A stretch of 64,000 nucleotides of DNA, taken from NCBI GenBank assembly GCA_003697085.1, contig RFFU01000074.1, forward strand, positions 124,001 to 188,000, read 5' to 3'. Below the pieces are notes generated by a model, which was not told the origin of the DNA, did no database searches, and was given only the letters and a program-made list of their open reading frames with translations. The position numbers and the translations under genes are program-made. Shown in pieces: positions 20,539-54,837 of the stretch. Source of the stretch: Candidatus Hydrogenedentota bacterium (GTDB lineage: Bacteria > UBA8481 > J006). How positions within the stretch are numbered: position 1 is the stretch's first letter; each line of letters opens with the position of its first letter.

Positions 20539-20598
20539 GGGGCCGCATGGAGGAAGGCGTACAATAAAAACAAGAAGCGAAAGGAGGAAGGGAGAAAA

Positions 20599-26400: not shown

Positions 26401-26477
26401 CAAATGAAATAAACCTTGAAAACGAAATGATGTCGGTTATCCTCCGCCTGAGGAGTGGCGGAAAATTGCGGGATTGA

Positions 26478-26496: not shown

Positions 26497-26625
26497 AGCT
26501 ATGGTCGATATCTACAGTGGTCGGTAGGGATTCTGTGGGATAAGTAACCGCACGGAGTGGAAAGAATGTTTTTGGACCGGCCGAAATGCAGAGAAATGAG
26601 AAACGAAATAAGGGGAGGTTGATCT

Positions 26626-30225: not shown

Positions 30226-30305
30226 GAGTAAAAACGAAATACGGGTCGTTCTTCTGATCGGCCCAGCTGTCTAGGTATCAGCGCTGACGAGTAACGGGGA
30301 AGAGA

Positions 30306-32809: not shown

Positions 32810-33904
32810 TTAAACAGTGCGGATTTTCAACATTGGAAGATAGAGAGAAATTACTACCCCTCCCAAGAGAGCGACGATAAAAACAATTGCGATTGGTTCA
32901 AGAACCGCAGTGAATATTCTCAGCGTTAAGTCCACCTCACTCTCGAAAAATTCAGCTGCTTGGACGAGCATTTCCGGAAGTTCTCCGGTTTCCTCTCCGG
33001 CGGCCGAAAGTTCCGACATCAACTTCGGGAACAACTCTTGATCCGATAACGCTTGGGAGAAAGAAATTCCTTGAGAGATTGCGGATTCGATACTTTGTGC
33101 CGTCCTCATGAAAACAACGTTTTCCAACACCTGGCTAACGACCGCCAGCGCATCGACGATATTTACGCCGCTCGCCATAAGAAGCGCCAAGGTCGAGGCG
33201 AAACGCGCCGTAAGAGTCTTCGTCAAAAGGGCCCCCCAGATAGGAGTTCTCAATAGAAATCGGTCGCGAAACTCTTGGAATTGCGGGATGTTCCGGGTTC
33301 GTGTGAGCAAATAGATCAATACCACGGAAGAGATCAGGAGGAGAAGATTGTTCGGAAACGTGAAAAGGTTGTGTGTGAGGAAGTCGCTGATTCCGAGAAC
33401 GACGCGCGTTGGAAGAGGAAGCGCTGTTCCGTGTTTCAAAATGGTGCTCTTCAAGCGGGGTACCAAATAGATCAGAAAGGCTCCCAATATCAGGAAACTT
33501 ACGAGGAGAACAACAATGGGATACGCCAACGCCGTAATAATTTTCGATTTTAGAGCAATGGATTTTTCCTGAAACGCATAAACCCGCGCCAACATTTCCG
33601 GGAGTTGTCCGGATGTTTCCCCCGCGCGAACCAAGTTGACGTAGACAGGGCGAAAAGTTCTCGGGTGTTTCGCGAGGGCTTGGGAGAGGGGGACGCCTGC
33701 AGTCACATCATGGTGAATGGATGACAGGATCCCTCTGAAGAATTCGTTTTCCGTTTGATCGCGGGTGATCAATAACGCCCGATCCAAGGGAAGACGAGCC
33801 TTCAAAAGCGTGAGAAGAATTCGCGTAAAAATCAAAAGGTCTTTATCGGAAACGCGCTGGCGAAAAATAATTTTTTTGTTGGCGGAGTGTCTCCTGAAAA
33901 CCAT
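32810..33904 (-). CDS. gspF: Type II secretion inner-membrane platform protein GspF
   Basis: A 364-residue polytopic protein with two GspF/PilC domains. Each has the short helical motif (ARLPLDRALLITRDQ and SGVNIVDALAVVSQ) followed by the GETSGQLPEML and GEETGELPEML signatures. Three membrane segments are visible: ALAYPIVVLLVSFLILGAFL, NNLLLLISSVVLIYLL and TAVLEPIAIVFIVALLGGVV. GspF forms the platform that couples the GspE ATPase to pseudopilus assembly. ATG 33904 is 11 bases after the gspE stop, with no strong Shine-Dalgarno, so coupled translation is likely. Somewhat shorter than the usual ~400 residues, with a reduced N-terminal arm. Confidence 0.93.
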   Translation of the reverse strand: MVFRRHSANKKIIFRQRVSDKDLLIFTRILLTLLKARLPLDRALLITRDQTENEFFRGILSSIHHDVTAGVPLSQALAKHPRTFRPVYVNLVRAGETSGQLPEMLARVYAFQEKSIALKSKIITALAYPIVVLLVSFLILGAFLIYLVPRLKSTILKHGTALPLPTRVVLGISDFLTHNLFTFPNNLLLLISSVVLIYLLTRTRNIPQFQEFRDRFLLRTPIWGALLTKTLTARFASTLALLMASGVNIVDALAVVSQVLENVVFMRTAQSIESAISQGISFSQALSDQELFPKLMSELSAAGEETGELPEMLVQAAEFFESEVDLTLRIFTAVLEPIAIVFIVALLGGVVISLYLPMLKIRTV

Positions 33905-33915
33905 TGGAGTTCTGG

Positions 33916-35652
33916 TTATTCCGATTCCGTAAGAGATACGCGCAGGACTTCGTCCATCGTCGTTATCCCCTGAAGCGCTTTGTCAAAACCACATTCCACC
34001 ATCGTGCGCATTCCAGAGGTTTTGGCGACCCGCCGGATTTCGTGGGGAGACCGTTTTTCCAAGACCATTTTTCGAATTTCGTCGTTCGGTTTCAGGAGTT
34101 CATAAATGGTCGTCCGGCCCCGGTATCCGGTCCCCAGACATTCATCGCAGCCTGCACCGCGATAGAGAACAAAAGGGTCATCGGGGATATTGCGGAGCCC
34201 CAGCTGCTCCAGCCCATTTCGTTCAGCAGGATAGGAAGTTCTGCAACAGGGGCAGATTTTCCGTACAAGCCGCTGGGCTTCTGTTAGATGAACCGAGGAG
34301 GTTATCAAAAAGGGCTCAACCCCCATATCGATCAACCGCGTCATAGCGCTCGTCGAGTCATTGGTATGGAGCGTGCTGAGAACCAGATGCCCGGTGAGGG
34401 CGGCGCGAATCGCGATTTCGGCCGTTTCCAAGTCGCGGATTTCGCCGATCATGACGATGTCGGGATCCTGGCGGAGGATGGAACGCAGAGCGGCGGCAAA
34501 AGTCATTCCTATTTCACTCTTGACAGCGACGGCATTGACGCCTTTGAGCCGATATTCTACCGGATCTTCCACAGTTGTGATGTTTTTTTCGGGCGAATTG
34601 ATCGAATTTAATCCGGCGTAAAGAGTGGTGGTTTTACCGCTTCCGGTCGGACCGGTTACAAGAACCATCCCGTACGGCCGTTTAAGGGCCTCCAAGAGGT
34701 GTTTCAGATCTTGATCTTCAAAACCGAGAGTATGGAGGTCGAGAGGGATGCTTTCCATGTCTAAGAGACGCATTACGATTTTTTCCCCATAGACATCGGG
34801 GAGAATTGAAACGCGGATATCAATATTATTTCCATCCACTTTTATCAAAATTCGCCCGTCCTGAGGAAGGCGTTTTTCAGCGATATCCAGGCCGGCCATT
34901 ATTTTGACGCGGCTCAGAATAGCGGGATACATAGCGAGCGGCGGGGCTTGAATTTCGTGGAGGATTCCGTCGATGCGGTAACGCAGCCGAAGTTCACGCT
35001 CGAAGGGTTCTAAATGAATATCACTGGCCCCTTTTTTAGCGGCCTCGAGTAGGATGAGGTTGACGACACGAATTGTCGGGACTTCACTCGATTTTTGTTG
35101 AAGAACGGAGATGTCTTCCTCTTCTTCCTGCTCCACGATTTCGAAATCACTTTCCCCCACGATGGTCATCATCTCATTGATACTGTTTTTGCCGCGGAAC
35201 GCTTTTCGGAGCTCGCGTTGGATTTCGGGGATCGACGCGACCAAGATATCAAGGTTTCGTTTCGAATGAAAACGAAGGACTGCGCGCGCTTCAGGGTTGT
35301 TTGGATTTGCCATCGCCACGGTTAACGTTTTTTCTGTGACGTTAATGGGAAGCAAATGAAATCTGTAACACACCGATTCTGGAACAACCTTCAGAGCCTC
35401 CGGGTCAGTGGGATGTCGTTCGGGAATATATGGCGGAAGACCATGGAGGCGTGCCAAGAAGATCGTAAGAGTTTGGGCGGGGACCGCTTCCATTTCAGCG
35501 AGAACTTCATCCAGACGCTTGTCGGGATGGGATGACAGTTGCTCTTTTGCGAGAACCAGGGTTCTTTCATCAACAACATTTTCTTTCAAAAGAAGGGATT
35601 CCAATGTCTCTAAGACCTGGGTCACAACACTGCCACTCCACTTTCTAAACAA
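33916..35652 (-). CDS. gspE: Type II secretion ATPase GspE
   Basis: A 578-residue GspE/PilB-type hexameric ATPase that powers pseudopilus assembly. It has the N-terminal GspE domain (~25-150), an acidic linker (QEEEEDIS), the N2 domain with ASDIHLEP and RYRIDG, Walker A GPTGSGKTTTLY (~334-345), the Asp box VEDPVEYRL, Walker B DIVMIGEIRDLETAE, the His box LSTLHTNDS, and a zinc-binding tetracysteine (CPCC and CDEC). The N-terminal RLDEVLAEMEAVPAQ resembles, but does not fully match, the c-di-GMP-binding MshEN motif. Start TTG 35652 is the longest reading; GTG 35625 has GGAG ten bases upstream and may be the real start. Transcribed divergently from the pseudopilin genes. Confidence 0.95.
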   Translation of the reverse strand: MFRKWSGSVVTQVLETLESLLLKENVVDERTLVLAKEQLSSHPDKRLDEVLAEMEAVPAQTLTIFLARLHGLPPYIPERHPTDPEALKVVPESVCYRFHLLPINVTEKTLTVAMANPNNPEARAVLRFHSKRNLDILVASIPEIQRELRKAFRGKNSINEMMTIVGESDFEIVEQEEEEDISVLQQKSSEVPTIRVVNLILLEAAKKGASDIHLEPFERELRLRYRIDGILHEIQAPPLAMYPAILSRVKIMAGLDIAEKRLPQDGRILIKVDGNNIDIRVSILPDVYGEKIVMRLLDMESIPLDLHTLGFEDQDLKHLLEALKRPYGMVLVTGPTGSGKTTTLYAGLNSINSPEKNITTVEDPVEYRLKGVNAVAVKSEIGMTFAAALRSILRQDPDIVMIGEIRDLETAEIAIRAALTGHLVLSTLHTNDSTSAMTRLIDMGVEPFLITSSVHLTEAQRLVRKICPCCRTSYPAERNGLEQLGLRNIPDDPFVLYRGAGCDECLGTGYRGRTTIYELLKPNDEIRKMVLEKRSPHEIRRVAKTSGMRTMVECGFDKALQGITTMDEVLRVSLTESE

Positions 35653-35744: not shown

Positions 35745-35772
35745 TTGCTTCTTTATGAAAAGGTTTTATAAT
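35745..35772 (+). promoter_or_regulatory. Candidate sigma70-type promoter for the gspG operon
   Basis: TTGCTT at 35745-35750 and a perfect TATAAT at 35767-35772 are separated by 16 bases, in an AT-rich divergent region. Transcription would start near 35779, about 100 bases before the gspG start codon. Confidence 0.55.
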
Positions 35773-35880
35773 CCTTTTTATAAGGTAGGAAAGGATTCCG
35801 GAAGGATTTTCGGTGGATGTTGGTTTTGGAGGAGAGTATCTCCGGCGGGGGAAGGGAGTGCAGAGAAGGAGAGGGTCGTC

Positions 35881-36411
35881 ATGATTCAAAGAGTGGGTTT
35901 CAGAAAACAAGGCGGATTTACGATAATCGAACTCACAGCGGTTTTGTTGATCATTGGGATTTTGATGGCGGTGGCGGCGCTGAGTTTTCGAGGGAATGAG
36001 GAAGCCGCCAAAATCACCTCGGCTCGCGCTTCGCTGAGAAATATACAAAATGCTCTCGAGACGTATCGATTACAAAAGAAATATTATCCCACGGGAACGG
36101 ATCGCGTGGGGTTGGCGAAACTTGTCAATGCCGGTCTGATTTCGGAGGAGAACCTCGAAGATCCCTGGGGGAACGACTATCATTATGAGCCGGTTCCTGA
36201 AGACAAGCCGACGGGTTATCGGCTGGAGAGCTACGGATCGGATGGGGTGGACGGACCGGAGGATCCGACGCTCCAGATGAGTAGTGCTTCGGCCGACGAG
36301 GAGGTGCAGAATCTGGATGAAGAAGCATTAGAGGGAGTCGATATTCCGGCTCCCATAGACAGCCGTCGGCATGATTGGGACGATTCCAATGACAACGTTG
36401 AGGTTCAATAA
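35881..36411 (+). CDS. gspG: Major pseudopilin GspG
   Basis: A 176-residue type IV pilin-like protein. The prepilin peptidase site is G-FTIIE, with the conserved Glu at +5, followed by the hydrophobic helix LTAVLLIIGILMAVAAL. GspG hallmarks follow: NALETYRLQKKYYPT, NLEDPWGNDYHYEPVP and YGSDGVDGPEDP, the last being the calcium-binding loop region. After it comes an unusual acidic tail of ~45 residues (VQNLDEEALEGVDIP, HDWDDSNDN), absent from typical GspG of ~140 residues. ATG 35881 has AAGGAGAG about eight bases upstream. First gene of a rightward T2SS operon. GspG forms the shaft of the pseudopilus that pushes cargo through the secretin. Confidence 0.92.
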   Translation: MIQRVGFRKQGGFTIIELTAVLLIIGILMAVAALSFRGNEEAAKITSARASLRNIQNALETYRLQKKYYPTGTDRVGLAKLVNAGLISEENLEDPWGNDYHYEPVPEDKPTGYRLESYGSDGVDGPEDPTLQMSSASADEEVQNLDEEALEGVDIPAPIDSRRHDWDDSNDNVEVQ

Positions 36412-36486: not shown

Positions 36487-37173
36487 GTGGTGTCTGAACG
36501 AAGCGGTAGAGTTGCGGGGGACGGGTGTGGGAATCGGGGGATCCCGGGGAGAATTTCCGGCTTTACGATCGTCGAGCTGACTCTCAGTCTGTTTCTGATG
36601 GCCCTTATTCTTTCGGCCGTGTTTGGTGTCTTTTTTTCAACTGCGAAATCCGGGAACGAAGTGGAGCGGCATGCAACGGCTTTGCGGTTGGCGTCGAGTG
36701 AAATGGAGCGGTTGGCCTCTTATTCAAATCCCTTGTATATCGGAATTTCCGGGGGAAAGGGAACGGGAGAAAAGCCGAAGGTTGTCGGCAGGGATATTTC
36801 ATTTAAGGATCATTTTTCCATCGTGAGGAGAATTCACGCGGCGGAAACGAACCAAGATGTTCCGGGATTCATTCCGTCGGCGGACGATCTGATAACGGCG
36901 TTTATCGAGCCCAAGGACTATGTTCGTCGTCTTGCTGTTGTAGAAACGGAGGAGGAAAAAGCAGAAGCGGCTTCCGGTTCGACCGGAGAGTTGCGGCATG
37001 TTAGTAGAGACGCGGTTTTCGCTCGGACGGTAGAGAGAGAGATCCTTTCCTTTCATCCGCCTCTCGTCAAGGTATGGGTGACGGTCTATTGGAACGACAG
37101 GAGCGCGGGAATAGATCCTTTGGAGGATGGAGAGGCGGACTCCGTTCAGATCAGCACGTTATTGGCAGGTTAG
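36487..37173 (+). CDS. Minor pseudopilin, GspI/PilV-like
   Basis: A 228-residue prepilin-like protein. A leader of about 25 residues rich in Gly and Arg ends in ISG-FTIVE, followed by a hydrophobic helix (LTLSLFLMALILSAVFGVFF) with Glu at +5. The helix continues into ALRLASSEMERLASY, as in GspI/PilV proteins that cap the pseudopilus. The rest is a soluble domain without a clear match. The start is GTG 36487 or GTG 36490; a TAG stop lies immediately upstream in the same frame and no Shine-Dalgarno is obvious, so exact start is uncertain. Third-position in the gsp operon between gspG and a GspJ-like gene argues for a minor pseudopilin. Confidence 0.75.
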   Translation: MVSERSGRVAGDGCGNRGIPGRISGFTIVELTLSLFLMALILSAVFGVFFSTAKSGNEVERHATALRLASSEMERLASYSNPLYIGISGGKGTGEKPKVVGRDISFKDHFSIVRRIHAAETNQDVPGFIPSADDLITAFIEPKDYVRRLAVVETEEEKAEAASGSTGELRHVSRDAVFARTVEREILSFHPPLVKVWVTVYWNDRSAGIDPLEDGEADSVQISTLLAG

Positions 37174-37183
37174 GTTTTCGAAA

Positions 37184-38098
37184 ATGGAAATGATCGCTCG
37201 AAGGAAGAGGGAAGGGTTCACAATCATTGAACTGGTGGCCGTTTTGTTAATTTTGGGAATCGTGACTTTGGCTATTTCCGAAGCGTATAATGGAATGATA
37301 TTCACTTCGGAAGAACAAAGGTCGAAGATGTTTGCCAACCAGGATATCACGTTTTTCGCCCGGAAAATGACGAATGAGATGCTTGGGATATCGCGTCTTC
37401 TTCCGACAGGAAACGGCCAAATATTCACAGGTGATTTTTTTCTGGACAAAATTATTTCCGTGCTTCCCACCGGCGATAAAGTGGTGGAAGGCCGCCTTGC
37501 GGCTTTTCGTTTGGTTGAGGTCAAGAGCCCATATTCATCAAGTCAGGCCGAGCGATTTCTTGAGTTACAAGTGAGAAGAAGTCGGTATCGTTGGACGGAT
37601 CAGTTGGCGATCAACAAAGACAATGACGGCCCGGACGGAGTATCGGCCGATGAATATCGAAAAGATGCGGAGGGGGCTTTTCTGGATGTCGATAACGCCG
37701 ATGAAGATGAGGATCCTAAAACGGGTGTCGACGTCTTCGACGACGATGGCTTTCCCGACGATTTAGGAAAGATTGAAGTGGTCGATGGGGAAATTTCAAA
37801 GGCGGAACATCGGGAACTCGTGGAACAAGGTGACTGGGAAACTTTTTTTAACGGTATTTCACCCCGGGAAAAAGAGGCCTATATTCTTCCTGTTTCGATG
37901 TCGTTTACGTTTTTTGATTCTCTGGGGATACCCCTTAATGAAAGAAACGAAGATTTATCGAGCCTTGGTATCTATGAGCTGAACCAAGCAAGGACGATGC
38001 GAGTGTCGATCGTGTATCGAAGGCGTGTAGGGGGGAGGATCCTGGATTCGGAAGAGGAGGCCAGCTTCGTCGTTGGTCTTGGAACATTGAATTCTTAG
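37184..38098 (+). CDS. Minor pseudopilin, GspJ/PilW-like
   Basis: A 304-residue prepilin-like protein starting at ATG 37184, 10 bases after the previous stop. It has a short basic leader ending KREG-FTIIE, a hydrophobic helix (LVAVLLILGIVTLAISEAY) with Glu at +5, and a large soluble domain. An acidic, probably calcium-binding loop is visible (DVDNADEDEDPKTGVDVFDD, close to DNDGPDG). The length and position suit GspJ, which forms the tip of the pseudopilus with GspI and GspK. ATG 37190 is an alternative start. A GspK-type partner may be the gene beginning at 62778. Confidence 0.75.
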   Translation: MEMIARRKREGFTIIELVAVLLILGIVTLAISEAYNGMIFTSEEQRSKMFANQDITFFARKMTNEMLGISRLLPTGNGQIFTGDFFLDKIISVLPTGDKVVEGRLAAFRLVEVKSPYSSSQAERFLELQVRRSRYRWTDQLAINKDNDGPDGVSADEYRKDAEGAFLDVDNADEDEDPKTGVDVFDDDGFPDDLGKIEVVDGEISKAEHRELVEQGDWETFFNGISPREKEAYILPVSMSFTFFDSLGIPLNERNEDLSSLGIYELNQARTMRVSIVYRRRVGGRILDSEEEASFVVGLGTLNS

Positions 38099-38166: not shown

Positions 38167-39600
38167 ATGGTGCGTGCCGCTGCAATTGAAATTGATTCGC
38201 GTGCCCTTCGGTATCTCAAAGGGTGGGTCGGGAAGAAAAAGGTTACCGTGAAAGAAAAAGGGGAGATGATTTCCGCTGATGAAAAAAGAGGCGCTGAGGG
38301 GGGGGACACGGCGGGAATCGCTTGGTACAACGAGGTTTTGGAAAAATGGAAAGCGACCGGAATGTTTCAAGATGTTGAAGAGTTGGTCGTCGTGGTGCCG
38401 GGGCCGAACGCCTTTTATTGTTCTGTGGTGTTGAGGCCGGAAGATTTGGTCTCGGCCTCCAAAGTTAGTGAACGTTGCGCGGCGGTATTGAAGGACGCCT
38501 TGGCATTCTCGAAAGTAGATACGCGTGTGGGTATTCCCGCCCGGCTTTTGGCGGCGGATGTTCGGGAAGGGCGCGATACCGTTGCAGCAGCCGTACCGCG
38601 GTCGGATTTTTCAGTATTCGATGGATTATTGCCGAGTCTTTCGGGATTGGGCTGTGACCTGGTCCGGCTGGATATCCGGGGAACCACTCTGGGAGCGGTC
38701 GGCGCGGCGCATTTTTCAAACGGAATGGTTGTCGACATCAGCGATCGGGCTGCGCGGGGTGTTCTCATTCAGGAGGGAGTAATCCGAAGGTATTTTTATG
38801 TGGAGTCTTTGATTGCCCACGGTAAAGAAGAGGGGTTTTGGGAGAAAGTCTTACACGAGATCACGCTGGCGTTGCCAAACGCCCAAAGAGCCGAAACGCT
38901 GCTCGAGAATGTTATGGTTTTAGGGGTGACGCCGGCTCAAGAGAACCGAATTGCGGAAACATTGAGATGTTTGACGGACCGTCCTCAAATCGATGGCCTG
39001 GGAGACGATGATTCAGAAAAGTATTCTTCGTGTTACGGGGCGCTTCTCGGCCTGGCGAGAGCGGACGTGCCGGCGCTGAATTTTCTGCCGGAAGAGGCCA
39101 TCGATTTGATTTACGGTGCTCGGCGTCGGGGAAGGTATCGCAAGAGGATGCAATGGGTATGTGGGATCGCGTTCGGTGTTTTTCTTATAAGCCAAGCGGC
39201 GATGATGGTACAGGAGGAAAAAAGGGAGGCGTTAAGAGAGGATCTTCGAAAAGATAGAAGTAAAGTTGAAGCAGTAATGAGAAGAAAAAGTGAACTGGAG
39301 GAAAAGTATAAGCTCCTGGAAGCGGCGGAAAATTTGAGGCTGTGGAATTTTTCTTGGGCGGAGTTTCTTTCAAATTTGAGGGATATATTGCCGCGAAAGA
39401 CGTGGTTGGAGAGTGTTTCGTATGGAAGGGACGGGGTTTTGAAAATTCGAGGGAGTTCATATTTGAAAAACGCCTCAAAGAAATTAGAGAAATCTCTTAA
39501 GGGATTCGAACGACTTGAAAACGTTCAAATACGAAAAAACAAGCGGAGTTCGGACGGAAAAGTTTTCCGTTTCGAAATTTGGTGCGGAATTCGGAAATGA
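38167..39600 (+). CDS. gspL: Type II secretion assembly protein GspL (PilM-PilN-like fusion)
   Basis: A 477-residue inner-membrane protein. The cytoplasmic N-terminal part (~1-310) has the actin-like ASKHA layout of PilM/GspL (AAIEIDSRALRYLKGW, VVDISDRAARGVLIQEG, NFLPEEAIDL before the membrane). A single membrane helix (WVCGIAFGVFLISQAAMMV) is followed by a coiled coil (EEKREALREDLRKD) and a ferredoxin-like periplasmic domain of PilN type (NLRDILPRKTWLESVSYGRD). GspL recruits GspE through its ASKHA domain. ATG 38167 follows a purine-rich stretch with AAGGGAA. Its TGA overlaps the ATG of the next gene (ATGA), so GspL and the GspM-like protein are made in coupled fashion. Confidence 0.85.
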   Translation: MVRAAAIEIDSRALRYLKGWVGKKKVTVKEKGEMISADEKRGAEGGDTAGIAWYNEVLEKWKATGMFQDVEELVVVVPGPNAFYCSVVLRPEDLVSASKVSERCAAVLKDALAFSKVDTRVGIPARLLAADVREGRDTVAAAVPRSDFSVFDGLLPSLSGLGCDLVRLDIRGTTLGAVGAAHFSNGMVVDISDRAARGVLIQEGVIRRYFYVESLIAHGKEEGFWEKVLHEITLALPNAQRAETLLENVMVLGVTPAQENRIAETLRCLTDRPQIDGLGDDDSEKYSSCYGALLGLARADVPALNFLPEEAIDLIYGARRRGRYRKRMQWVCGIAFGVFLISQAAMMVQEEKREALREDLRKDRSKVEAVMRRKSELEEKYKLLEAAENLRLWNFSWAEFLSNLRDILPRKTWLESVSYGRDGVLKIRGSSYLKNASKKLEKSLKGFERLENVQIRKNKRSSDGKVFRFEIWCGIRK

Positions 39601-40892
39601 AGGCGCCTCCGGTAACGGACAAATGGATTCTCGCGCTGGGAGTGCTGACAGGGGTTGCCTTATTCCTGACGTTTCATAATGTTAAACGAATCAATGTTTT
39701 AATAAATACGAACAGTACTTTGAAAAATCGCGTCGAGAAAAACCGTGATGAAATATTGAATGGAAAAGAGATTGAAAAGGAAAGAAGAGAATTATTCAAA
39801 CAGTTGGAAGTTTTGAAAACGCATTTCTATGCTCCGGGAAACCCCGAAACGGTCAAGGAGGATTTGGAGCGGCTCGCAACAGAATTGAATGCGGCTTTTG
39901 GGGATGCCTGTCACTCGCGGGATATTCAAATAGTTGTTGGGCAGGCCTATCCCAGTGGGACGAAGGGTCTTTGGGAGTATCCGGTTGCATTGGACATGGT
40001 CGGAAATTATAACGCCTTGGGAAAAACGTTGGAGATGTTGGAAAGAGGGGGGAAGGTGTTACGAGTGAGTGCCCTTGAGGTTCTTCCTCGGTCCGGCGGT
40101 TTTGATTTGAAGATTCACCTGGAGTTTTCGGTAGGGGCTGTGGATGGAGGGAAACGACGGAAGAATTCCGACAGGGAATTAAAAAAGACACTCCCTTCGG
40201 CAGAAGCAAAGTGGTTGTTTGAAGACGAGCGGTTTCGCATTGTGATGAGCCCGATCCGTTCTCCTTTCGTCGACCTCGAAGAGATTGAGAATTCCCGTTT
40301 GGTTTTGCGGGTTCCACTAACAACAAAGGAGGTCAAGGCTTCGGATGGATCCCCCGTCCGAGTGTCCCCGGAACCGGAGTTGTCGTTAGGGGTTCCACCG
40401 CCGATAGAAAAGGAGTATCGCTCGAAAAACGGACAACCGATTCGGGTTATATTTGAGGATGAAAGTCCATATTATGTAATGGTGAAAGCAGGGGAGAAAA
40501 CTTTCATTGGGCCGGATGGTGCCAAGCGGTCGTTGCCCGAAGGACGGCCGGCGTCAATGATCGATAGAAAAACAGGTCGGCGGATTGTATTCACGTACGA
40601 ATCAAAACCGAAATTACCGGCGATTTTTAAAAACGTGGTATATACAGGAAATATTGTCGGTGGTAAGGCGATGGTTCTTCTTCCGCGGGGCGATGTATCT
40701 GCGGATTCAAAAGAGGGCGGTAGTCGGAGGAAGAGAGCGTTTTGGGGAAAAGGACAGATTGTCGGTCGGGAGGTGGGAACGCAGCATAGGGTCTATGTAA
40801 AGGAAATAAAGAAAGAATACATCGTTTTAACACTTTATTTGGACAAGAAAACGGAATATAATTTCACACTCCTACGGTCTCGAAAACGGTGA
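39597..40892 (+). CDS. GspM/PilO-like protein with C-terminal PilP/GspC-like domain
   Basis: A 431-residue protein with one N-terminal membrane helix (WILALGVLTGVALFLTF), a coiled coil (~30-75) and a ferredoxin-like PilO/GspM-type periplasmic domain (SRDIQIVVGQAY, YPVALDMVGNYNALGKTLEM). After ~200 a basic linker and a second region lead to a beta-rich C-terminal part (FKNVVYTGNIVGGKAMVLL, FWGKGQIVGREVG, YIVLTLYLDKK) resembling the homology-region fold of GspC or PilP, which binds the secretin N-domains. If so, one polypeptide links GspL/M with the secretin, replacing a separate GspC, and no separate gspC is seen here. ATG 39597 overlaps the gspL stop as ATGA. The C-terminal call is inference from pattern. 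Confidence 0.65.
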   Translation: MKAPPVTDKWILALGVLTGVALFLTFHNVKRINVLINTNSTLKNRVEKNRDEILNGKEIEKERRELFKQLEVLKTHFYAPGNPETVKEDLERLATELNAAFGDACHSRDIQIVVGQAYPSGTKGLWEYPVALDMVGNYNALGKTLEMLERGGKVLRVSALEVLPRSGGFDLKIHLEFSVGAVDGGKRRKNSDRELKKTLPSAEAKWLFEDERFRIVMSPIRSPFVDLEEIENSRLVLRVPLTTKEVKASDGSPVRVSPEPELSLGVPPPIEKEYRSKNGQPIRVIFEDESPYYVMVKAGEKTFIGPDGAKRSLPEGRPASMIDRKTGRRIVFTYESKPKLPAIFKNVVYTGNIVGGKAMVLLPRGDVSADSKEGGSRRKRAFWGKGQIVGREVGTQHRVYVKEIKKEYIVLTLYLDKKTEYNFTLLRSRKR

Positions 40893-40920: not shown

Positions 40921-43900
40921 GTGAAGACGGGAAAAGGCGGACAATTTCATCAAAAACGGGGTGCCGTTGATATTATGAAATGTGGGATTCTCCTCTTAGC
41001 TTTCGGGATGACGGTGCTTGCGGCTTCGGCCAGGGTGAATATGGATTTTGAAGACGCATCAGTTGAGGAGATTGTTACGAATTTGTTTGGTGCCGAGGGG
41101 AAACGGTTTGTGGCAGAGGAGCCTCTTCCCCAGCAGAAAAGCACGATTCATGTGGAAAACTCGGATTTCGACGAAGCCTTATCCGCGGTTCTCGAGAAGA
41201 TCGGCTTTTCTTTTCGTGTGGATGAGAGCGGGGTTTACCATTTATTTCGAGAAGAAGGGCGGAAAGAGAAAGCCGGTACGTCGGAAGAGGCGACTTCAGG
41301 GAGAATATCGTTGGAGTTTAGTGGTGATGTACGGGAAGCGGTTCAGTTGGCTTTTGAGCAGCTGACCAAAAAACCAGAATACGTCATTATGCCCGAGGTT
41401 GGGGGAAAAACGGAGGTGAACTTTCGCGACAAGGATTTGAAGACGGCGTTAAAGCTCATTTTGACACCGCGGGGATATGAGGCCGTGGAAAAGGACGGGG
41501 TAATCTGGATACAGAAGGGAAAGCGTTCGAGGGAAGGGAAAACCGGGAGCAAGAAACGTGATCTGGTTACGAAGATTATCGAGGTAAAGAAGCCCGCGGA
41601 GAAGTATAAAAACATTGTAAAAAATTTGTTGACGCCGGGAAGAGGAAAGGTTGTCATCGACAAAGATTTCAACCTTGTAATAATAACGGATACGAAAGAA
41701 AAGATCGCGGAAATAGAAAACGTCATTTCCCGGTATGACACAAGAGAAGAGGGGGAGAGGGAAAAGCGGCCGGGTCAGGGCGAAAAAAAAGGAAGGGCGG
41801 ACGAGTTTGTTACGCAGATTTACAAGGCCCAATACAAGAGTGTCGGTTTTCTCGAAAAACGCGTTCGAAAATATCTTAGCCCAGATGGAAACATTTATGC
41901 GGACGAGGAAGAGGGGACGTTGGAAATCGAGGACAAGAAATCGCATGTGGACAAGATTCTCTACGCGTTGAAAACATATGATATTGAGAAAGTTCGGTAT
42001 GTAACAATAAAGAAACAACTAAATTTTTCGAAAGCAGAAGATTTGGTTGATGAGTTGCGGGATATTTTATCATCCGATGCGCAGGTGACATTTAATGAGA
42101 GGACGAATAGAATCTTTGTCCGTGAAACCGAAGAAAACGCCGATCAAGTCGTCGAGTTTCTCAACGATGCGGATCAACCTCCGTTGCAGGTGTCTATTGA
42201 GGCGACCATCTTGGATTTGCAGTTGTCAGGGGACAATGAATTCGGGATTGATTGGCAGGCGGTTTTTAATTCGATGAATCCCATGGGGTCGAATTTTGCC
42301 GTGGGAACAAATCTTATTACGGATATTACGGTTGATAATCCCCAATTTGTTGAATACCAGAGAGATATGAACGGCAACCTGATTCTGGGGGCGAACAACG
42401 ATGCAGTACCCGTATCTCACACTCCCGGGTCCGTTGTTGGAAATCGACAAGGGGCGTTCGTGTCTCAGGTCCAGCTTCACAATGTCGATTTGTTCGGGCA
42501 TAAGGACCTGATAAAGGTGTTGACGGCGCGGTTATTGGCTTCGAAGGTCATTTCGAAGGCGGATATTCTGGCATCTCCGAAGATCAACGTGATCAACAAC
42601 GAACAGGCTTTGATCGAAGTAGGCTCGAAGATTCCTTTCGTGACATCAACGACAACGGGAGGTGCGGCGACGGAGAATATTACGTTTGAGGATGCTGTTC
42701 TGAGCCTGGAGGTAACTCCAACGATCAACCCGGATCACATTGTGAATATGCGAATTGATTTGACCAATGATCGTCCCGGTCCGAGCGTGAGATCGGATGT
42801 TAACGTGCCAGTTATCTTAAAACAGCATCTGACAACCAATTTAGATGTTAAATCGGGCAATACGGTGATATTGGGAGGATTGGATCGGAAAACCATTGAT
42901 GAGGATAAGACGGGGGTTCCGATTTTGATGGATATTCCCCTTCTCGGACGGCTTTTTTCGAGAAAGACGAAAACCCAGGTAAAAAGAGAGTTAGTTCTTT
43001 TTATTACGCCGACGATATTACCGTCTCCTTACGAAAATGACAACACGAAAGAAGCCCTTCGAAAAAAGCGGGAACATGAATTTGTTGACGAAAAGCCTGT
43101 TCAGTTTGTGGAGGCGTTCGTAGAACCGGAGGAATTAACGATATCGCGGGATCCTGATTTTGCCGGCGATACGCTTCGTGTGACATTTCGTGTCGATAAA
43201 GAATTGCGGGCTGATCCGATGGTTCTTGTGGCGGGGAGAAAAGCGAGAAAAATGGAAGCAGACGGGAAATCCTTTTCCTACGCATTTTCCCCCGGGGTGA
43301 ATTTCCCGCAAGGAAGGAATGAAGTTATGATCAGGGTCGAGGACAAGGCGGGAAATGAAAATTCGATACAAATTCCTTTTTCCGCGTATTTAGAGAGGTT
43401 TCCACCAGAGTTTACAAACATAAAACAAAGCCCTCGTCCCGGGGTGATGGGAGAAGAAATGGAAATCTCTTTTCGAGTCAACAAAACATTGAAAGAAGAG
43501 CCGAAAGTCCGTGTGGGGGGGAAGGATCTTGTTTTGGAAAAAGCGGGGCCGCGGTCGTATCGCTATAAGTTTCAGGTTCCGATGGCTCCGCGGGAGGGCA
43601 GATACCGTTTGGAAATTGAAGGAATAGATCTCGACGGGAATGTAGGGAGGACGACCACGGGGGTCGATATCGTCTTTGAAAAGACCCCACCCAATCTTCA
43701 GTTTAAATCGGTGGTTCCGGCCACGGTTGCCCTGGGAGAAACACTTGAGGTGAATGTTGTTTCGAATGAGGCTTTGCGGAGACCTCCGGTACTCCTTATC
43801 AATGGTCACACAGCGAACCTGACGTATTGGGACACGAGAATACATTCCTTTACGTTTCAATATCGTCCTTCGGAAGTTTCAGAAATAGGTCGGGTGCCGA

Positions 43901-45549
43901 TTAAGGTTCGAGGGATCGATAAGGTTGGAAACCTCGGCGAGGCGAGCGATACCATTCGAATAATCGGCGATCATATCCCGCCGGTGGCAAGGGAGATTCA
44001 TCTTAAACCGAAGTGTCTCGTTTACTACCCCGGCGGCAAAGCATCGCGGCTGCTTCTCGGCGTTGATTTTACTGAAGATTTGGCCGAAGAGCCACACGTA
44101 TATTTCGGAAAGAAACGAGGCGAAATACGCAGACATGAGGGGCGGCATTATGAGTATGAGTACGCCTTCAAAACGAAAAAGACGGATGAAGAAGAATTAA
44201 ATATCAGAATCGAAGCGGTGGACGAATGGGGGAACCATTCGGAAACGACGATTCGCGTCCCTTTGAGGGCGGAGACCGAAGCGCCTGAGATTACAGAGAT
44301 CACAGTGGAACCAAGGGAGGTGGTGATTTATCCCGGGAACAGAAAGAAAAGAGCAGAGGCGATAATACGGTTTAAGGTGTCGGAGAAGTTGAAAGGGGAT
44401 CCTCTTGTCACGGTGGGAGGTCATTTGGCGCGCAAGATCAAGGAGGAAGGAGGAATATATCTGTACAAATTTGTTCTCGGAAGACATTCTTCAGAGACGG
44501 GAGTGCGGCCGGTGAGAATTGTAGTCACGGACTTGGCAGGCAATAGTACAGAGGTCTCGGATGAAATAGAGTTTGTATTGGAGAACGAGCCGCCCGCTTT
44601 TCGGGATTTGCGGGTTCTTCCGAAAGCGGAGGTGATGCTGTATCCTGGGGATCCAAAAAAGAAAACGAGAATCATTCTATTAAAGTTTGAGGCCAGCGAA
44701 GAGTTGAGGGGGGATCCGGAAGTAACGGTTGGAGGTAAACCGGCACAATTTGTAACGCGTTCCGGACTTAGATATACCTATCGGGTGGGGATTGAATCAG
44801 CGGATACGCGAGATTTTCTGGACGTAATTGCGGCGGGACGGGATTTGGCCGGGAATTTCGGCCGAGAGCGTATAGGAAAGATAAGGTTGGTTCGGGAAAC
44901 AAAGCCGCCGATTGTCAGGAAAATTAAAGTTGAACCGAAAAGTGTTGTGGTGTACCCCGGGCAACCGGAAAAAAACAAGGAGATTGAGATTCTTTTCGAA
45001 GTGGATGAACCATTAGGAAAAAATCCCGAGGTTTACGTAGGGGGAAATCCGGCGCGTTTTGACCCGAAAACCTCGGCGGCACCATTCCTTTTTGGGTTTT
45101 CTTACCGGCCCGGCCGGGAGGAACGCGAAGGTGCCATACCGGTAGTTATTAAAATTCAGGATCTAGCAGGGAACAAAACTTCGTTGGTTCGAAAGGTCAT
45201 TTATCGTTTTGAAAAAGACCCCCCGGTGATATCGGATGTTCACCTAGTAGGGAAACCTCTGTTGGGAAGTTGGATCAAGATCATATTTCGTGTGAATGAA
45301 ACGCTTGTCGAACCGCCTTCTGTAATCGTTTCAGGACGGCGTGCCTCTTTTGAGAATTATGATTCAAAGAAACGGGAGTATGTTTATCGGTATCATATTC
45401 CTCGGAAAACGGGATCGCCTCAACTTTATGTTGAGATTGTCGCCCGTGATCTCGTTGGAAATGAGGCGACATTTTCGGGAAACCTTCCGGCTCATCCGGG
45501 GGCGTTATCCTACGGGGAAACAGTAAAAGGAAAATGGCGGGGGCGATAG
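40921..45549 (+). CDS. gspD: Secretin GspD with about eight C-terminal Ig-like domains
   Basis: A 1,542-residue outer-membrane secretin, roughly twice the usual 600-700. GTG 40921 gives an 18-residue extension; ATG 40975 starts directly at the signal peptide (KCGILLLAFGMTVLAASA). The N-terminal part has STN/N0-like and N1-N3-type domains (NMDFEDASVEEIVTNLF, EVNFRDKDLKTALKLIL, IIEVKKPAEKYKNIVKNLL). The secretin pore domain (~480-705) has LLASKVISKADILASPKINV, KTGVPILMDIPLLGRLF and RELVLFITPTIL. From residue ~731 to the end come about eight repeats of 80-105 residues with ITFRV- or VSF-type strands and D-x-x-GN motifs (DKAGNEN, DLAGNST, DLAGNFG). Normally the C-terminal S-domain follows the pore and nothing more. 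The repeats are probably at the outer-membrane face. Confidence 0.88.
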   Translation: MKTGKGGQFHQKRGAVDIMKCGILLLAFGMTVLAASARVNMDFEDASVEEIVTNLFGAEGKRFVAEEPLPQQKSTIHVENSDFDEALSAVLEKIGFSFRVDESGVYHLFREEGRKEKAGTSEEATSGRISLEFSGDVREAVQLAFEQLTKKPEYVIMPEVGGKTEVNFRDKDLKTALKLILTPRGYEAVEKDGVIWIQKGKRSREGKTGSKKRDLVTKIIEVKKPAEKYKNIVKNLLTPGRGKVVIDKDFNLVIITDTKEKIAEIENVISRYDTREEGEREKRPGQGEKKGRADEFVTQIYKAQYKSVGFLEKRVRKYLSPDGNIYADEEEGTLEIEDKKSHVDKILYALKTYDIEKVRYVTIKKQLNFSKAEDLVDELRDILSSDAQVTFNERTNRIFVRETEENADQVVEFLNDADQPPLQVSIEATILDLQLSGDNEFGIDWQAVFNSMNPMGSNFAVGTNLITDITVDNPQFVEYQRDMNGNLILGANNDAVPVSHTPGSVVGNRQGAFVSQVQLHNVDLFGHKDLIKVLTARLLASKVISKADILASPKINVINNEQALIEVGSKIPFVTSTTTGGAATENITFEDAVLSLEVTPTINPDHIVNMRIDLTNDRPGPSVRSDVNVPVILKQHLTTNLDVKSGNTVILGGLDRKTIDEDKTGVPILMDIPLLGRLFSRKTKTQVKRELVLFITPTILPSPYENDNTKEALRKKREHEFVDEKPVQFVEAFVEPEELTISRDPDFAGDTLRVTFRVDKELRADPMVLVAGRKARKMEADGKSFSYAFSPGVNFPQGRNEVMIRVEDKAGNENSIQIPFSAYLERFPPEFTNIKQSPRPGVMGEEMEISFRVNKTLKEEPKVRVGGKDLVLEKAGPRSYRYKFQVPMAPREGRYRLEIEGIDLDGNVGRTTTGVDIVFEKTPPNLQFKSVVPATVALGETLEVNVVSNEALRRPPVLLINGHTANLTYWDTRIHSFTFQYRPSEVSEIGRVPIKVRGIDKVGNLGEASDTIRIIGDHIPPVAREIHLKPKCLVYYPGGKASRLLLGVDFTEDLAEEPHVYFGKKRGEIRRHEGRHYEYEYAFKTKKTDEEELNIRIEAVDEWGNHSETTIRVPLRAETEAPEITEITVEPREVVIYPGNRKKRAEAIIRFKVSEKLKGDPLVTVGGHLARKIKEEGGIYLYKFVLGRHSSETGVRPVRIVVTDLAGNSTEVSDEIEFVLENEPPAFRDLRVLPKAEVMLYPGDPKKKTRIILLKFEASEELRGDPEVTVGGKPAQFVTRSGLRYTYRVGIESADTRDFLDVIAAGRDLAGNFGRERIGKIRLVRETKPPIVRKIKVEPKSVVVYPGQPEKNKEIEILFEVDEPLGKNPEVYVGGNPARFDPKTSAAPFLFGFSYRPGREEREGAIPVVIKIQDLAGNKTSLVRKVIYRFEKDPPVISDVHLVGKPLLGSWIKIIFRVNETLVEPPSVIVSGRRASFENYDSKKREYVYRYHIPRKTGSPQLYVEIVARDLVGNEATFSGNLPAHPGALSYGETVKGKWRGR
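43115..45520 (+). repeat. About eight tandem Ig-like repeats in the secretin C-terminus
   Basis: Each unit starts with a short strand after a PP motif (for example EPPAF, KPPIV, DPPVIS), has a middle V-x-V-G-G/H motif (VTVGGHLARK, VTVGGKPAQF, VYVGGNPARF) and ends with a D-x-x-GN turn. Units 4-7 share PxxVxxYPG (YYPGGK, IYPGNRKK, LYPGDPKK, VYPGQPEK). The layout resembles bacterial Ig-like or cadherin-like domains. Confidence 0.75.
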
Positions 45550-45568: not shown

Positions 45569-46726
45569 ATGGCGCTATTTGTTTTGGGAAACTTGAGAAC
45601 AGGTGCTCTCATCAGTGTTCTTCTTTTTTTTCTGTCGATTCGTGCGGATGCGTTGGCCGGAACCACAGTGGAGAAATTGGAACGATGGGAGGCGAGGATA
45701 AAAGAAGTTTCGCGAAGGGATCGGTATCCGGAGGAATTCAAGAAGGAATTGGTCTTTCAAAAGGGAGTTCTTGAGATTCTTTTGAGGGGCCTCGAGACAG
45801 ATGCGAAAGTACGTAGAAAGTGGAGAGAGGAGGTAATAATCCACCGAAAAAGAATAAAGAAGAACGCGGATTATCTGAAGATAAGGAAATTGCGGAAAGA
45901 GAGGCGGGCACTTCGAGAGGAGTTTTGGGATTCCGCGACAAGGATTTACCAAGTGATGGGAGGAAAAGCAAAGAAAAAGTGGGGGGAGATGGTTGAGGAG
46001 TTGGACTATTTGTGGGAAACGGCCGAATTAGAACTCCAAAGGGAGAGGAGTCTGTTAGCGCAGAATGAAAAAAAGGAGAAGAATTTGGAAAAAGAGATTC
46101 GAAAGCGAAAAGAAACTTTTCTCAAGTTGGAAGCCGCGATGAGAGAAATTTCTTTTAATCAGGAAGAAGAGATCGTTTTCGAATTTGGCGAAAGGTGTTT
46201 TTCGGACGGCGTTCGGGCGGGTGCTTTGGAGGAGCAGATTGCCTTGTTAAAGGGCGATTTCGGAAGGGTGAATCGGGAAAAGCAGATTGGAGTGGCTCTA
46301 AGGCATCTAAAGCTGCTGCGGGAAAAGGAGGAGATCGACTGGAGCGTCGATCTTCTCGTGGACGACCTTTATTACAGAAATATGAAAAAGCTCGTGGAGC
46401 GAAATCGGGTACTCCCGAAGGATATTCGGCGATCACGATTGAAACAATTAACGTCCGAAGAAAAAATCAACAGGTTAAGAGGCGAATTGAGACATCTGCA
46501 AGTGCTTCTAGCGATTTTGGGAGAAGAGCGGCAGTATTGTGAAAAACTCGACGGGTTTCCTTGTGAAATACGGAAGATTGAAGGAGAAAGAGAAAGAACG
46601 GCGTATGAAATTGAAACGAAGATGATGGAGATCGAACGAATGGAAGCGCAACAAAAAGGGGATAGGAAGACATTACGGAGACTTGAAAAGAAGATGCAGG
46701 AGCATAAGCGGTTGAGGATTCGATGA
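45569..46726 (+). CDS. Unrecognised exported coiled-coil protein in the T2SS operon
   Basis: A 385-residue protein with no family I recognise. ATG 45569 starts 19 bases after the secretin stop. A signal peptide or anchor is visible (GALISVLLFFLSIRADALAG); nearly all the rest is charged helix with heptad-like spacing (KLRKERRALREEFWD, EKKEKNLEKEIRKRKE, KTLRRLEKKMQEHKRL), predicted to be long coiled coil. Lys, Arg and Glu make up a large share. The TGA overlaps the ATG of the next gene (ATGA), so the two are coupled. Position suggests a periplasmic structural or assembly partner of this secretion system, perhaps replacing a pilotin or peptidoglycan-spacer function. That role is inference. Confidence 0.7.
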   Translation: MALFVLGNLRTGALISVLLFFLSIRADALAGTTVEKLERWEARIKEVSRRDRYPEEFKKELVFQKGVLEILLRGLETDAKVRRKWREEVIIHRKRIKKNADYLKIRKLRKERRALREEFWDSATRIYQVMGGKAKKKWGEMVEELDYLWETAELELQRERSLLAQNEKKEKNLEKEIRKRKETFLKLEAAMREISFNQEEEIVFEFGERCFSDGVRAGALEEQIALLKGDFGRVNREKQIGVALRHLKLLREKEEIDWSVDLLVDDLYYRNMKKLVERNRVLPKDIRRSRLKQLTSEEKINRLRGELRHLQVLLAILGEERQYCEKLDGFPCEIRKIEGERERTAYEIETKMMEIERMEAQQKGDRKTLRRLEKKMQEHKRLRIR

Positions 46727-48045
46727 TTCGTTCGAAACGCATTTTTTATCCGATCGCGGGTGTCGTCATTTCCACAGTGGTCGTATTAGGAATGCAATTT
46801 ATCTGCAACAAAGCGCCAGGAGAGTTAAGGTATCTTAATAAAAGAGGTGAAAGAGCGAAGTATCGCATGATGATCCACGTTGTATGCAGGACGTCAGAAG
46901 GCGACTCTATTCTTCAAAGTGTCGATTGGACCCTACGAGGAGAATTAAAGGAATACGTAAAGAGCATCGGGAAAAAGTCGGGTGTGGCTCAAGTGGAGTA
47001 CTCTTTTTCTGGGGGAAAACTTTCGTTTCTTAATTCGGAGGGAGAGGGTGGGGTTTTTCGGTTGCCTGCTACTAAAATAGTCTGCAAAAGAAATTCATTT
47101 TCTACGCTGCGAAAAATGGTTTCTCGAAGGGGAAAAGGCGTTAAGGAGGAAAAAGATCTTGCATCCTTATTTGAAAGGACGTTTGTCCCGGATTTTCTGG
47201 AGCCTCCCTTATCTCAAGAAAAGAAGAGGAAATGGAGGTGGTTTCGGAGTTTGCGGGAGGGGGAAAGATGGAAAAAAAGCGTCCCGGTAATAATTCCTTT
47301 TTTGGAGGAAGAGGTATCGTTGCCGGGACGATATCATGTAGAAAATATCGAGATCAGAAAGAAGACCGTGGATATAAAAGGGGAGTATGAGAAAAGGATT
47401 GCAACGAGGGAAGGCCTCGGTTTTACTTCAAGCGATGGCATCGTCTTTTATCTGCGGGGCGGCATTTCCGGAGTCTCCCGATCAAAATTTGATTACCGGT
47501 TGGGACGGGTTCTCGCATCTTCGGCAAAAATCAATGCCCAGTTTCGTTATGCGGATTTTCCACTGGATAAGGAAAAGAGTGATGCAGGAGGTAAGAGAAG
47601 AACAAGCATTAGTAAACCGGTCGAGAGGGGGAGAGATATCCTAAAGATCGCAATGCAAATCCTTCAGACGGTTTTTCTTCCGGTTCCGGCCCGTGCACAG
47701 GAAGGTCGCTGGATTTTCGTGGATGGGAGAAAGCCGACAGAAGAAAAAAAGGAGACCCTTTCCGAGAACGGAACGAAAGGAAGTGAAGCTCCGACAGGAC
47801 GATCAGCGAAAGAAGACGAATTCTTGGCGCAGTACGATGTGTTTTTTGAAGATGAGACGGACAAGGTTCTGGAAGACACGGGGGTGTTCCAGGAGGAAGG
47901 ATCGAATGACACGTCGAAAGCCGAACAATACGGAGGAAGTGGCTTTCGTCCAGAGGTGGAGATTTATTTTGATGAAGATGAAGTATCTCCTTTGCTTCGC
48001 GCGATGATAGAGATTCAATATGAGTTTAGAAGAGTCGGCAAATGA
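46723..48045 (+). CDS. Unrecognised membrane-anchored protein in the T2SS operon
   Basis: A 440-residue protein with an N-terminal membrane helix (YPIAGVVISTVVVLGMQFI) and a largely soluble beta-rich middle (RYHVENIEIRKKTVDIKGEY, KFDYRLGRVLASSAKINAQF). Near residue 310 a second hydrophobic stretch ends in PVPARAQEG, which resembles a signal-peptidase site inside the protein. The C-terminal ~110 residues are acidic and low in complexity (SEAPTGRSAKEDEF, DEDEVSPLL). Family is not recognised. Its ATG overlaps the stop of the coiled-coil gene, and it is the last gene of the gspG-gspD run, so it is probably an accessory part of the secretion apparatus or a cargo factor. Confidence 0.65.
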   Translation: MIRSKRIFYPIAGVVISTVVVLGMQFICNKAPGELRYLNKRGERAKYRMMIHVVCRTSEGDSILQSVDWTLRGELKEYVKSIGKKSGVAQVEYSFSGGKLSFLNSEGEGGVFRLPATKIVCKRNSFSTLRKMVSRRGKGVKEEKDLASLFERTFVPDFLEPPLSQEKKRKWRWFRSLREGERWKKSVPVIIPFLEEEVSLPGRYHVENIEIRKKTVDIKGEYEKRIATREGLGFTSSDGIVFYLRGGISGVSRSKFDYRLGRVLASSAKINAQFRYADFPLDKEKSDAGGKRRTSISKPVERGRDILKIAMQILQTVFLPVPARAQEGRWIFVDGRKPTEEKKETLSENGTKGSEAPTGRSAKEDEFLAQYDVFFEDETDKVLEDTGVFQEEGSNDTSKAEQYGGSGFRPEVEIYFDEDEVSPLLRAMIEIQYEFRRVGK

Positions 48046-53406: not shown

Positions 53407-54837
53407 ATGGAGATTTTTATTCGAAGAAATGACCGATTTTCGGTTCGTTTTTTCGCCGCTTCCATTTTTGTTCTTCTGACAATATTTGTTGCGTGGGTGT
53501 ATGAGTATGCCGTTGGAAGCGGGGGGGCGATTCTCGCGTCGTTGGTTTTTTCGATAACCTTTCTGTTTGGGGGGTATATCGGTGGAGTTACATTTTTTCT
53601 CTTTCTTCCTTTTTTATGGTTCGTGACGCGGATGGAACCGATGTTGATGGGGAGTGTCATCGTCAGAACAGCCTATTTAGGTACGGGCGTACTAATCGTG
53701 GCGCGCACACGGCGTTTAATGGAGGCACGCCAAGCTTACGAGGGGTATCAGAGCGTCGATTCAGAGGGCGAGTTGAATCATCTCAAAAATCTTCTTTTGC
53801 ACAAGAGCGAACGGGTGGAGGCATTGCGAAGGGGAATAAAACGGATGGAAGGATTGGCTGTGGCGGCGAAAGAGTTGAACGCGGCGAACAGTGTTACGGA
53901 GGTGGCCAGAATACTGGCTGATTATGCTTCAAGGGGAGGCCGCGAAGGAACGCGAGTGGTGATATTTGCTGTTGATGATCAAGATGATGCTGAACCGCTT
54001 GCAGCGGGTAAGAACGGTGAAATTGTTACGGGAGGAAGAGAGCTGAAGCAGTTGGACGGTCAAGATTTCAATCCTTATCTTTTACGGCGGCGGATCAATA
54101 TCTTTGTAGAGGACGTTTCCGACGAGTTTCGGACGCCGCCGTTGGCGAAGGTCAACCGTGATGTTGCTTGTGTAATGGCTGTTCCTATGGTTATCGGAGA
54201 TAAGGTAGTGGGGATTATTCGGTGTGAATCGGATACGCCGCGAAATTATGAAATGGAGGACTTGCGATATATCAATTCCCTGGCCGTTCCCGGGGCTATC
54301 GCTTTAGAAAATGCACGGCTTTATTCTCAAACGGAAGAACATGCAAAGTTAGATGGATTGACGGGTGTTTTCCGCAGGGGAAGGTTAGAAGCGAGGTTGG
54401 ATTGGGAGATCAAGAGAGCCATCCGATACGGAAAACCGCTTTCTGTTCTTTTGTTGGATGTAGATCATTTCAAATCCATTAATGATTCGTACGGGCATGT
54501 GGTTGGAGATGATGTCTTACGGCGGATGGGAGGGATTCTAAAAGAGAATTTTTCAGAGCCGTATTTCGTGGGGAGATATGGAGGTGAAGAATTTTTGGTA
54601 TTGATGCCGAATCATGACACGAAGGAAGCGAAAGACCGTGCCGAGGCATTTCGAAGAAGGGTGGAAGAGACAACGTTCGGGGAAAAGATAAAAATCACTA
54701 TTTCTGGAGGAATTGCCACCTGTCCGAAGGATGCGAAAACTGACAAAAAGCTGCTCAAAATGGCGGATCGGGCTCTGTATTGTGCCAAGGAAAGTGGAAG
54801 GAATCGGATTGAAATCTTTAACGAGGGATCTCGATGA
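53407..54837 (+). CDS. Membrane diguanylate cyclase with GAF and GGDEF domains
   Basis: A 476-residue protein with two to three N-terminal membrane helices (FFAASIFVLLTIFVAWVY, ILASLVFSITFLFGGYIGG, VTFFLFLPFLWFV), a coiled-coil segment (~120-150), a GAF sensory domain (~150-310) and a GGDEF domain (~318-470). The active site is YGGEEF (preceded by GR), with DVDHFKSINDSYGH for metal and GTP binding, so it should make c-di-GMP. The residues before GR (SEPYFV) do not form an RxxD inhibitory site, so product feedback is not expected. The TGA overlaps the ATG of the second cyclase (ATGA). Start ATG 53407 has only a weak Shine-Dalgarno. Confidence 0.9.
   Translation: MEIFIRRNDRFSVRFFAASIFVLLTIFVAWVYEYAVGSGGAILASLVFSITFLFGGYIGGVTFFLFLPFLWFVTRMEPMLMGSVIVRTAYLGTGVLIVARTRRLMEARQAYEGYQSVDSEGELNHLKNLLLHKSERVEALRRGIKRMEGLAVAAKELNAANSVTEVARILADYASRGGREGTRVVIFAVDDQDDAEPLAAGKNGEIVTGGRELKQLDGQDFNPYLLRRRINIFVEDVSDEFRTPPLAKVNRDVACVMAVPMVIGDKVVGIIRCESDTPRNYEMEDLRYINSLAVPGAIALENARLYSQTEEHAKLDGLTGVFRRGRLEARLDWEIKRAIRYGKPLSVLLLDVDHFKSINDSYGHVVGDDVLRRMGGILKENFSEPYFVGRYGGEEFLVLMPNHDTKEAKDRAEAFRRRVEETTFGEKIKITISGGIATCPKDAKTDKKLLKMADRALYCAKESGRNRIEIFNEGSR

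Follow-up and report, generated by a model that had tools for sequence, protein, structure and literature searches.

A secretin with eight Ig-like domains after its pore domain in a Candidatus Hydrogenedentota bacterium

Introduction

In solved secretins of type II secretion systems (T2SS), entry into the outer membrane is ascribed to the beta-lip and an amphipathic helix alone, the remainder being periplasmic; after the barrel comes a C-terminal S-domain, to which lipoprotein pilotins bind in the periplasm (PMC6532946, PMC6882859). The scaffold GspB/OutB anchors the secretin to peptidoglycan and to the inner membrane, acting together with the pilotin (PMC9239104). GspB/OutB and the pilotins are separate proteins; GspB binds the N0 domain of the secretin, and GspS its C-terminal region. 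For type IVa pilus (T4aP) secretins, a set of 197 from Proteobacteria had AMIN(0-3)-N0-N3-secretin as its dominant architecture, the AMIN domain being thought to bind peptidoglycan in PilQ, and 27 of the 197 carried no AMIN domain (PMC7545093). Solved secretin rings mostly contain 14-15 chains.

Here we analyse a secretin gene in a 64,000-nucleotide stretch of DNA from a Candidatus Hydrogenedentota bacterium, hereafter the window, in which a complete pore domain is followed by eight Ig-like domains. A search of the open-licence full-text literature found no paper describing a secretin with an Ig-like C-terminal extension.

Results and Discussion

The secretin gene and its tail

The features of the gene, in window positions, are as follows.

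40921..45549, + strand: secretin gene of 1542 codons with a GTG start and an alternative ATG start at 40975
40975..41031, + strand: probable Sec signal peptide, MKCGILLLAFGMTVLAASA, without a lipobox, by eye from the translation
41038..42552, + strand: periplasmic N-domain region with two STN and two Secretin_N stretches and no AMIN domain found (Pfam)
42553..43020, + strand: Secretin pore domain PF00263, residues 545-700, profile positions 6-168 of 169 (Pfam)
43021..43092, + strand: charged 24-residue linker, residues 701-724, at the place of the GspD S-domain
43093..43398, + strand: Ig-like repeat 1, residues 725-826
43399..43683, + strand: Ig-like repeat 2, residues 827-921
43684..43974, + strand: Ig-like repeat 3, residues 922-1018
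43975..44277, + strand: Ig-like repeat 4, residues 1019-1119
44278..44586, + strand: Ig-like repeat 5, residues 1120-1222, modelled jointly with repeat 6
44587..44901, + strand: Ig-like repeat 6, residues 1223-1327, modelled jointly with repeat 5
44902..45216, + strand: Ig-like repeat 7, residues 1328-1432, modelled alone
45217..45489, + strand: Ig-like repeat 8, residues 1433-1523
45490..45546, + strand: basic C-terminus of 19 residues without a recognised sorting signal

The sequence-only reading had described a secretin of about 1,542 residues with eight D-x-x-GN repeats after its pore, and this description was upheld, as the frame runs without a stop across all 1542 codons and the tail consists of exactly eight repeats of 91-105 aa each (residues 725-1523, window positions 43093-45489). 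The extent given for the tail needed one correction, since its start had been put at 43115, which is 22 bases inside repeat 1. The ATG at 40975, where the probable signal peptide begins, may be the likelier start codon of the gene.

A tail encoded by a separate gene and joined to the secretin by an assembly or frameshift error would be compatible with the fragmented assembly (145 contigs) and with the fusion having been seen once. However, there is a single open frame within a contig of 199.7 kb, the gene spacing is compact on both sides, and the secretin part and the tail are similar in codon usage (distance 0.099, tied smallest in the table), and this explanation was thus rejected as barely credible. 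The GC content of the two parts is also alike (0.465 and 0.490, respectively). Isoelectric points are 8.9 for the tail, which is basic, and 5.2 for the acidic N-domain part.

With the tail left out, the pore is still complete. The PF00263 match scores 148.5 bits against a cut-off of 27.5, which places the protein in the secretin superfamily, the upstream N-domains are likewise over their cut-offs (STN 35 bits, Secretin_N 73.7 bits; Pfam), and the aligned stretch of solved PilQ and GspD chains coincides with the PF00263 match. A search of genome_contigs with a four-row secretin alignment gave a set of 80 secretin loci, and these closest relatives (Geobacter, Alteromonas, Glaciecola and others) all stop 0-10 residues past the pore domain, while 842 residues follow it in the window secretin. 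The tail therefore lies after the pore and outside the barrel, as the sequence-only reading had it, and the candidate explanation that it is part of the secretin barrel was ruled out.

Sequence and fold of the repeats

The invariant columns across the eight repeats are L, P, D, G and N, and D-x-x-G-N is present in 8/8. When each repeat was scored with an HMM built from the other seven it reached 38.7-73.0 bits, compared to at most 13.5 bits for shuffled sequences (417-472 scored shuffles for each repeat), indicating that the repeat array is not due to chance. The protein identity of the repeats to repeat 7 is 22-37%, and direct repeats at the DNA level are short and sparse only; the duplications are therefore old.

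Searches against Pfam gave the tail weaker matches to bacterial Ig-like families, Big_13 (PF19077) with 30.7 bits against a cut-off of 27 and HYR with 21.9 bits against 21.7, both being whole-protein scores with no single stretch passing alone. No solved structure matched the tail by sequence. Repeat 7, folded by AlphaFold2 on the eight-repeat alignment, was predicted as a seven-stranded sandwich (pLDDT 93.5, pTM 0.84), and repeats 5-6 as a directly adjoining pair of sandwiches (pLDDT 85.7, pTM 0.63). Foldseek with the repeat 7 model returned mostly Ig-type domains (best E 2.6e-3), and a structural aligner gave an ICAM-1 domain at Z 9.4 and rmsd 2.3 over 92 of 105 residues, with many Ig-type domains tied; the matches include modules of carbohydrate-active enzymes and the streptococcal GspB siglec adhesin. 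The models and structural matches together support the Ig-like label which had been proposed for the tail from the letters of the DNA, a label that carries no function. The repeats thus resemble Big_13, HYR and OmpL47-type bacterial Ig-like domains in their predicted beta-sandwich, D-x-x-G-N hairpin and tandem arrangement, but differ in that the whole-protein sums barely pass or miss the cut-offs, and the searches made turned up no secretin bearing an array of these types.

Relation to PilQ and GspD

The secretin core is nearer to PilQ of the type IV pilus than to GspD, within neither family cut-off. The PilQ profile TIGR02515 scored 256 bits against a subfamily cut-off of 284.35, which is below the cut-off though higher than the score of the GspD profile TIGR02517 (231.4 bits against an equivalog cut-off of 351.35; NCBIfam). 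Among solved relatives, PilQ 6w6m of Vibrio cholerae was best (E 3e-34) with GspD 5wq8 behind (E 1e-23), and the nearest genomic relatives of the core sit in pilMNOPQ-like operons. While the pore domain in this way best matches PilQ of the type IVa pilus in both structures and profile, PilQ ends at the barrel (6w6m aligned to residue 569 of 571) and the window secretin continues. Moreover, an N-terminal AMIN domain is usual in PilQ, being common and not strictly defining, and gave no match at E 0.1 in the window secretin (Pfam).

With GspD the protein shares the superfamily fold and the company of a GspG-like pseudopilin and GspE/GspF-type genes, but the S-domain of about 60 residues that follows the barrel in GspD is replaced by the 24-residue linker, which alone precedes repeat 1, and the eight Ig-like domains. 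The alignment with 5wq8 ends at residue 707 of the window secretin, corresponding to residue 593 of 650 in 5wq8, where its S-domain starts. The name GspD used in the sequence-only reading is only partly borne out: it agrees with the GspG-like major pilin next to the gene, but not with the PilQ models and structures, which outscore those of GspD with both cut-offs missed.

Gene neighbourhood

The following genes flank the secretin gene.

32810..33904, - strand: GspF/PilC-type platform protein, 304.5 bits, missing the equivalog cut-off of 424
33916..35652, - strand: GspE/PilB-type assembly ATPase, divergent, 619.7 bits, missing the equivalog cut-off of 630
35755..36411, + strand: GspG-like major pseudopilin, PF08334 50.7 bits against a cut-off of 21
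36487..37173, + strand: minor pilin-like protein with a weak N-methylation motif
37127..38098, + strand: minor pilin with an N-methylation motif
38167..39600, + strand: GspL-like or PilM-N-like protein, whose C-terminal 180 residues match PilN (PF05137, E 3e-5; hhalign E 1e-8)
39579..40892, + strand: 437-aa protein in the position of GspM or PilO/PilP, assigned by position only, with no profile match
45569..46726, + strand: 385-aa charged protein, probably coiled-coil and likely to have a signal peptide, separated from the secretin gene by 19 bp, no family match
46723..48045, + strand: 440-aa orphan protein overlapping the 385-aa gene, no family match

The T2SS set of GspG-type pseudopilin, GspE-type and GspF-type genes is thus present near the secretin, and the neighbourhood is a compact plus-strand set, with the GspE/PilB-type and GspF/PilC-type genes divergent, which mixes T2SS and T4P traits. 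The 385-aa protein is a candidate partner of the Ig tail. An Omp85 protein encoded in the genome is consistent with the presence of a true outer membrane. Three further secretins lie elsewhere in the genome, none with an Ig tail; a search with the tail found no second protein carrying such a tail in the genome.

No GspC or PilP was recognised by profiles among the proteins beside the secretin, and it could be imagined that the arms span a deep periplasm or thick envelope and link the pore to the inner-membrane platform as PilP or GspC would. The two neighbouring repeats modelled as beta-sandwiches in direct tandem would suit such a bridge, and another secretin of the same genome, with 14 scored Secretin_N stretches, is compatible with a deep periplasm. 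However, the N-domains already face the inner membrane, so that an arm leaving the barrel would have to turn back, and the T2SS-like secretin on contig C63 of the genome is of ordinary build. The 437-aa neighbour, for which a comparison with PilO and PilP profiles made from 8-11 loci gave no identity, could also supply PilO/PilP function unrecognised. A role as spacer or bridge is therefore regarded as improbable.

Further genes of the window were observed around this set. Glycoside hydrolases cluster around the secretion genes at 18292-32777 and 48933-51314 (GH31, two GH9 with CelD_N, MGH1-like, GH94 and GH38), a 3326-aa protein at 7038-17018 (+ strand) carries TIG domains, beta-propeller-like repeats and a C-terminus like FlgD_ig or Por_Secre_tail, and two GGDEF diguanylate cyclase genes lie side by side with a slight overlap at 53407-56132 (+ strand).

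Distribution of the fusion and other C-terminal modules

The survey comprised 386 genomes of very diverse families, 339 of them with secretins. The tail query matched 15 of the 386 genomes, the window's own included, and none of the 16 other tail matches fetched with about 1.5 kb of flank lay in a recognisable secretin. With a query made of the pore and repeats 1-2, only one of about 150 best listed matches (genome G009) ran well into repeat 1, to residue 768, and the 186-residue tail of that secretin is a different sequence from the Ig tail. No other secretin with such an Ig tail was thus found among the matches listed from the 386 genomes, which bears out the earlier impression that the fusion is unusual. 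A search for the same fusion in related genomes, which had been proposed as a check, came out negative for the one other genome of the phylum that was searched (86% complete), which has three secretins, none of them Ig-tailed, and a whole-protein search of genome_contigs gave no related locus. We conclude that the Ig-tailed secretin is a real and rare architecture, of which the parts are known and the combination was not found elsewhere in the searches made.

Large modules of other kinds were observed after the pore in several secretins. The genome itself encodes a giant secretin of 2779 aa on contig C88 (locus L005, 7880-16219, - strand), the one with 14 Secretin_N stretches mentioned above, which has Big_1 domains in its N-terminal part and four helix-hairpin-helix domains (HhH; HHH_3) after the pore and is therefore a secretin-ComEA-like fusion. 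Related HhH-tailed secretins are found at L033, from the same phylum, and at L036 and L037, from other lineages. The window secretin is like these giants in having a large C-terminal module after the pore, but their module is of the ComEA type and that of the window is Ig-like. In genome G174, a secretin (L063, ORF 598-2916, + strand) has about 315 post-pore residues with TPR-type helical repeats that resemble TPR pilotins, both by eye, and the secretins L022 (genome G009) and L075 (genome G157) have 146-186 post-pore residues consisting of a low-complexity linker and then beta-rich-looking sequence. A Tad-type secretin of the window's own genome (1220 aa, long for its class; L006, 9547-13209, - strand, contig C14) lies in a cpa/tad-like operon, by eye.

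The occurrence in one genome only, the absence from the one relative of the phylum and the absence of a close relative in genome_contigs would also be expected of an Ig array that was captured by fusion in this lineage and is tolerated in the periplasm, neutral or weakly selected and with no specific role. On the other hand, the eight repeats keep their fold signature at 22-37% identity to repeat 7 and no stop or frameshift interrupts about 2.4 kb, which would be hard to maintain without selection, and the HhH-tailed secretins are shared between lineages. Such a neutral tail is hence quite unlikely.

Location and role of the tail

The sequence-only reading had placed the tail at the outer-membrane exit, where it might bind polysaccharide, hold cargo, replace a pilotin or span a thick envelope. 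The tail begins at the position of the S-domain, which is periplasmic in T2SS secretins (PMC6532946, PMC6882859), and would therefore be expected in the periplasm by default, so that the placement at the exit is unsupported. Polysaccharide binding and the holding of cargo become less likely, and the replacement of a pilotin or scaffold is what is left. This topology is argued from T2SS homologues, and for PilQ the extent to which it crosses the outer membrane is uncertain (PMC7545093). ComEA binds DNA in the periplasm (PMC3879209), and the resemblance of the C-terminal HhH modules of the giant secretins to it fits a periplasmic secretin C-terminus.

Could the arms nevertheless extend to the outside, where the pore opens, and bind polysaccharide, the cell surface or secreted enzymes there? 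Ig-like arrays of bacteria often serve as adhesins on the surface, the structural matches include a siglec adhesin and modules of carbohydrate-active enzymes, and the window encodes many glycoside hydrolases (GH31, two GH9, GH94 and GH38). In contrast, solved T2SS structures have the secretin-fold C-terminus on the periplasmic side, the sequence bears no sign of a tail crossing a membrane, and likeness in Ig fold shows no function. Surface arms are consequently considered unlikely.

We tentatively favour, at somewhat less than even confidence, a periplasmic collar of Ig arms that would anchor or position the pore. The architecture, the Ig-like fold of the repeat, a pore that is whole without its tail and the rarity of the fusion are observed; the location is inferred from the architecture, and the role is conjectured from the location. 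Counting in favour of the collar, besides the start of the tail at the S-domain position, are the lack of an AMIN match, the GspB/OutB precedent and the basic character of the tail beside acidic N-domains. In this reading the protein forms the pore in the outer membrane for a type II secretion or type IV pilus-like machine, a complete PilQ/GspD-type secretin extended at its C-terminus by an eight-domain Ig-like arm. Its C-terminus would exit the barrel on the periplasmic side and, since secretin rings have about 14-15 subunits, some 14-15 arms would surround the pore, or lie beneath it, as a periplasmic collar. These arms may contact peptidoglycan, the outer membrane from its inner side and/or partners in the periplasm, the 385-aa protein being the first candidate, and could thereby position and stabilise the pore, standing in for an S-domain plus pilotin, for AMIN domains or for a GspB-type scaffold. 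The proposed job of holding and positioning the secretin would, as a functional analogy, be that of GspB/OutB and the pilotins (GspS, PilF, TadD), with the difference that the window tail is the secretin's own arm. Several points count against this anchoring role: an arm of eight domains is far larger than an S-domain requires, a single example gives no evidence of selection for the tail, and no known peptidoglycan-binding domain (LysM, AMIN, OmpA-like) was detected in the tail (Pfam).

More broadly, and more doubtfully, the secretin C-terminus might serve generally as a fusion site in the periplasm, where lineages equip every subunit of the pore with whole modules that replace pilotins, scaffolds or DNA-uptake proteins. 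The modules would then be the Ig-like arms in the window, as a built-in anchor, HhH domains of the ComEA type in this bacterium's own genome and in at least three others, and possibly helical repeats elsewhere.

Conclusion

The window secretin is a reminder that C-terminal secretin extensions should be tested before they are assigned to the cell surface. A pore with a 90-kDa Ig-like arm of its own on each subunit would show that the secretin C-terminus, usually seen as a short S-domain or as nothing, can host large modules. It would also be a natural system for pilotin-free targeting, insertion and retention of a secretin in the outer membrane.
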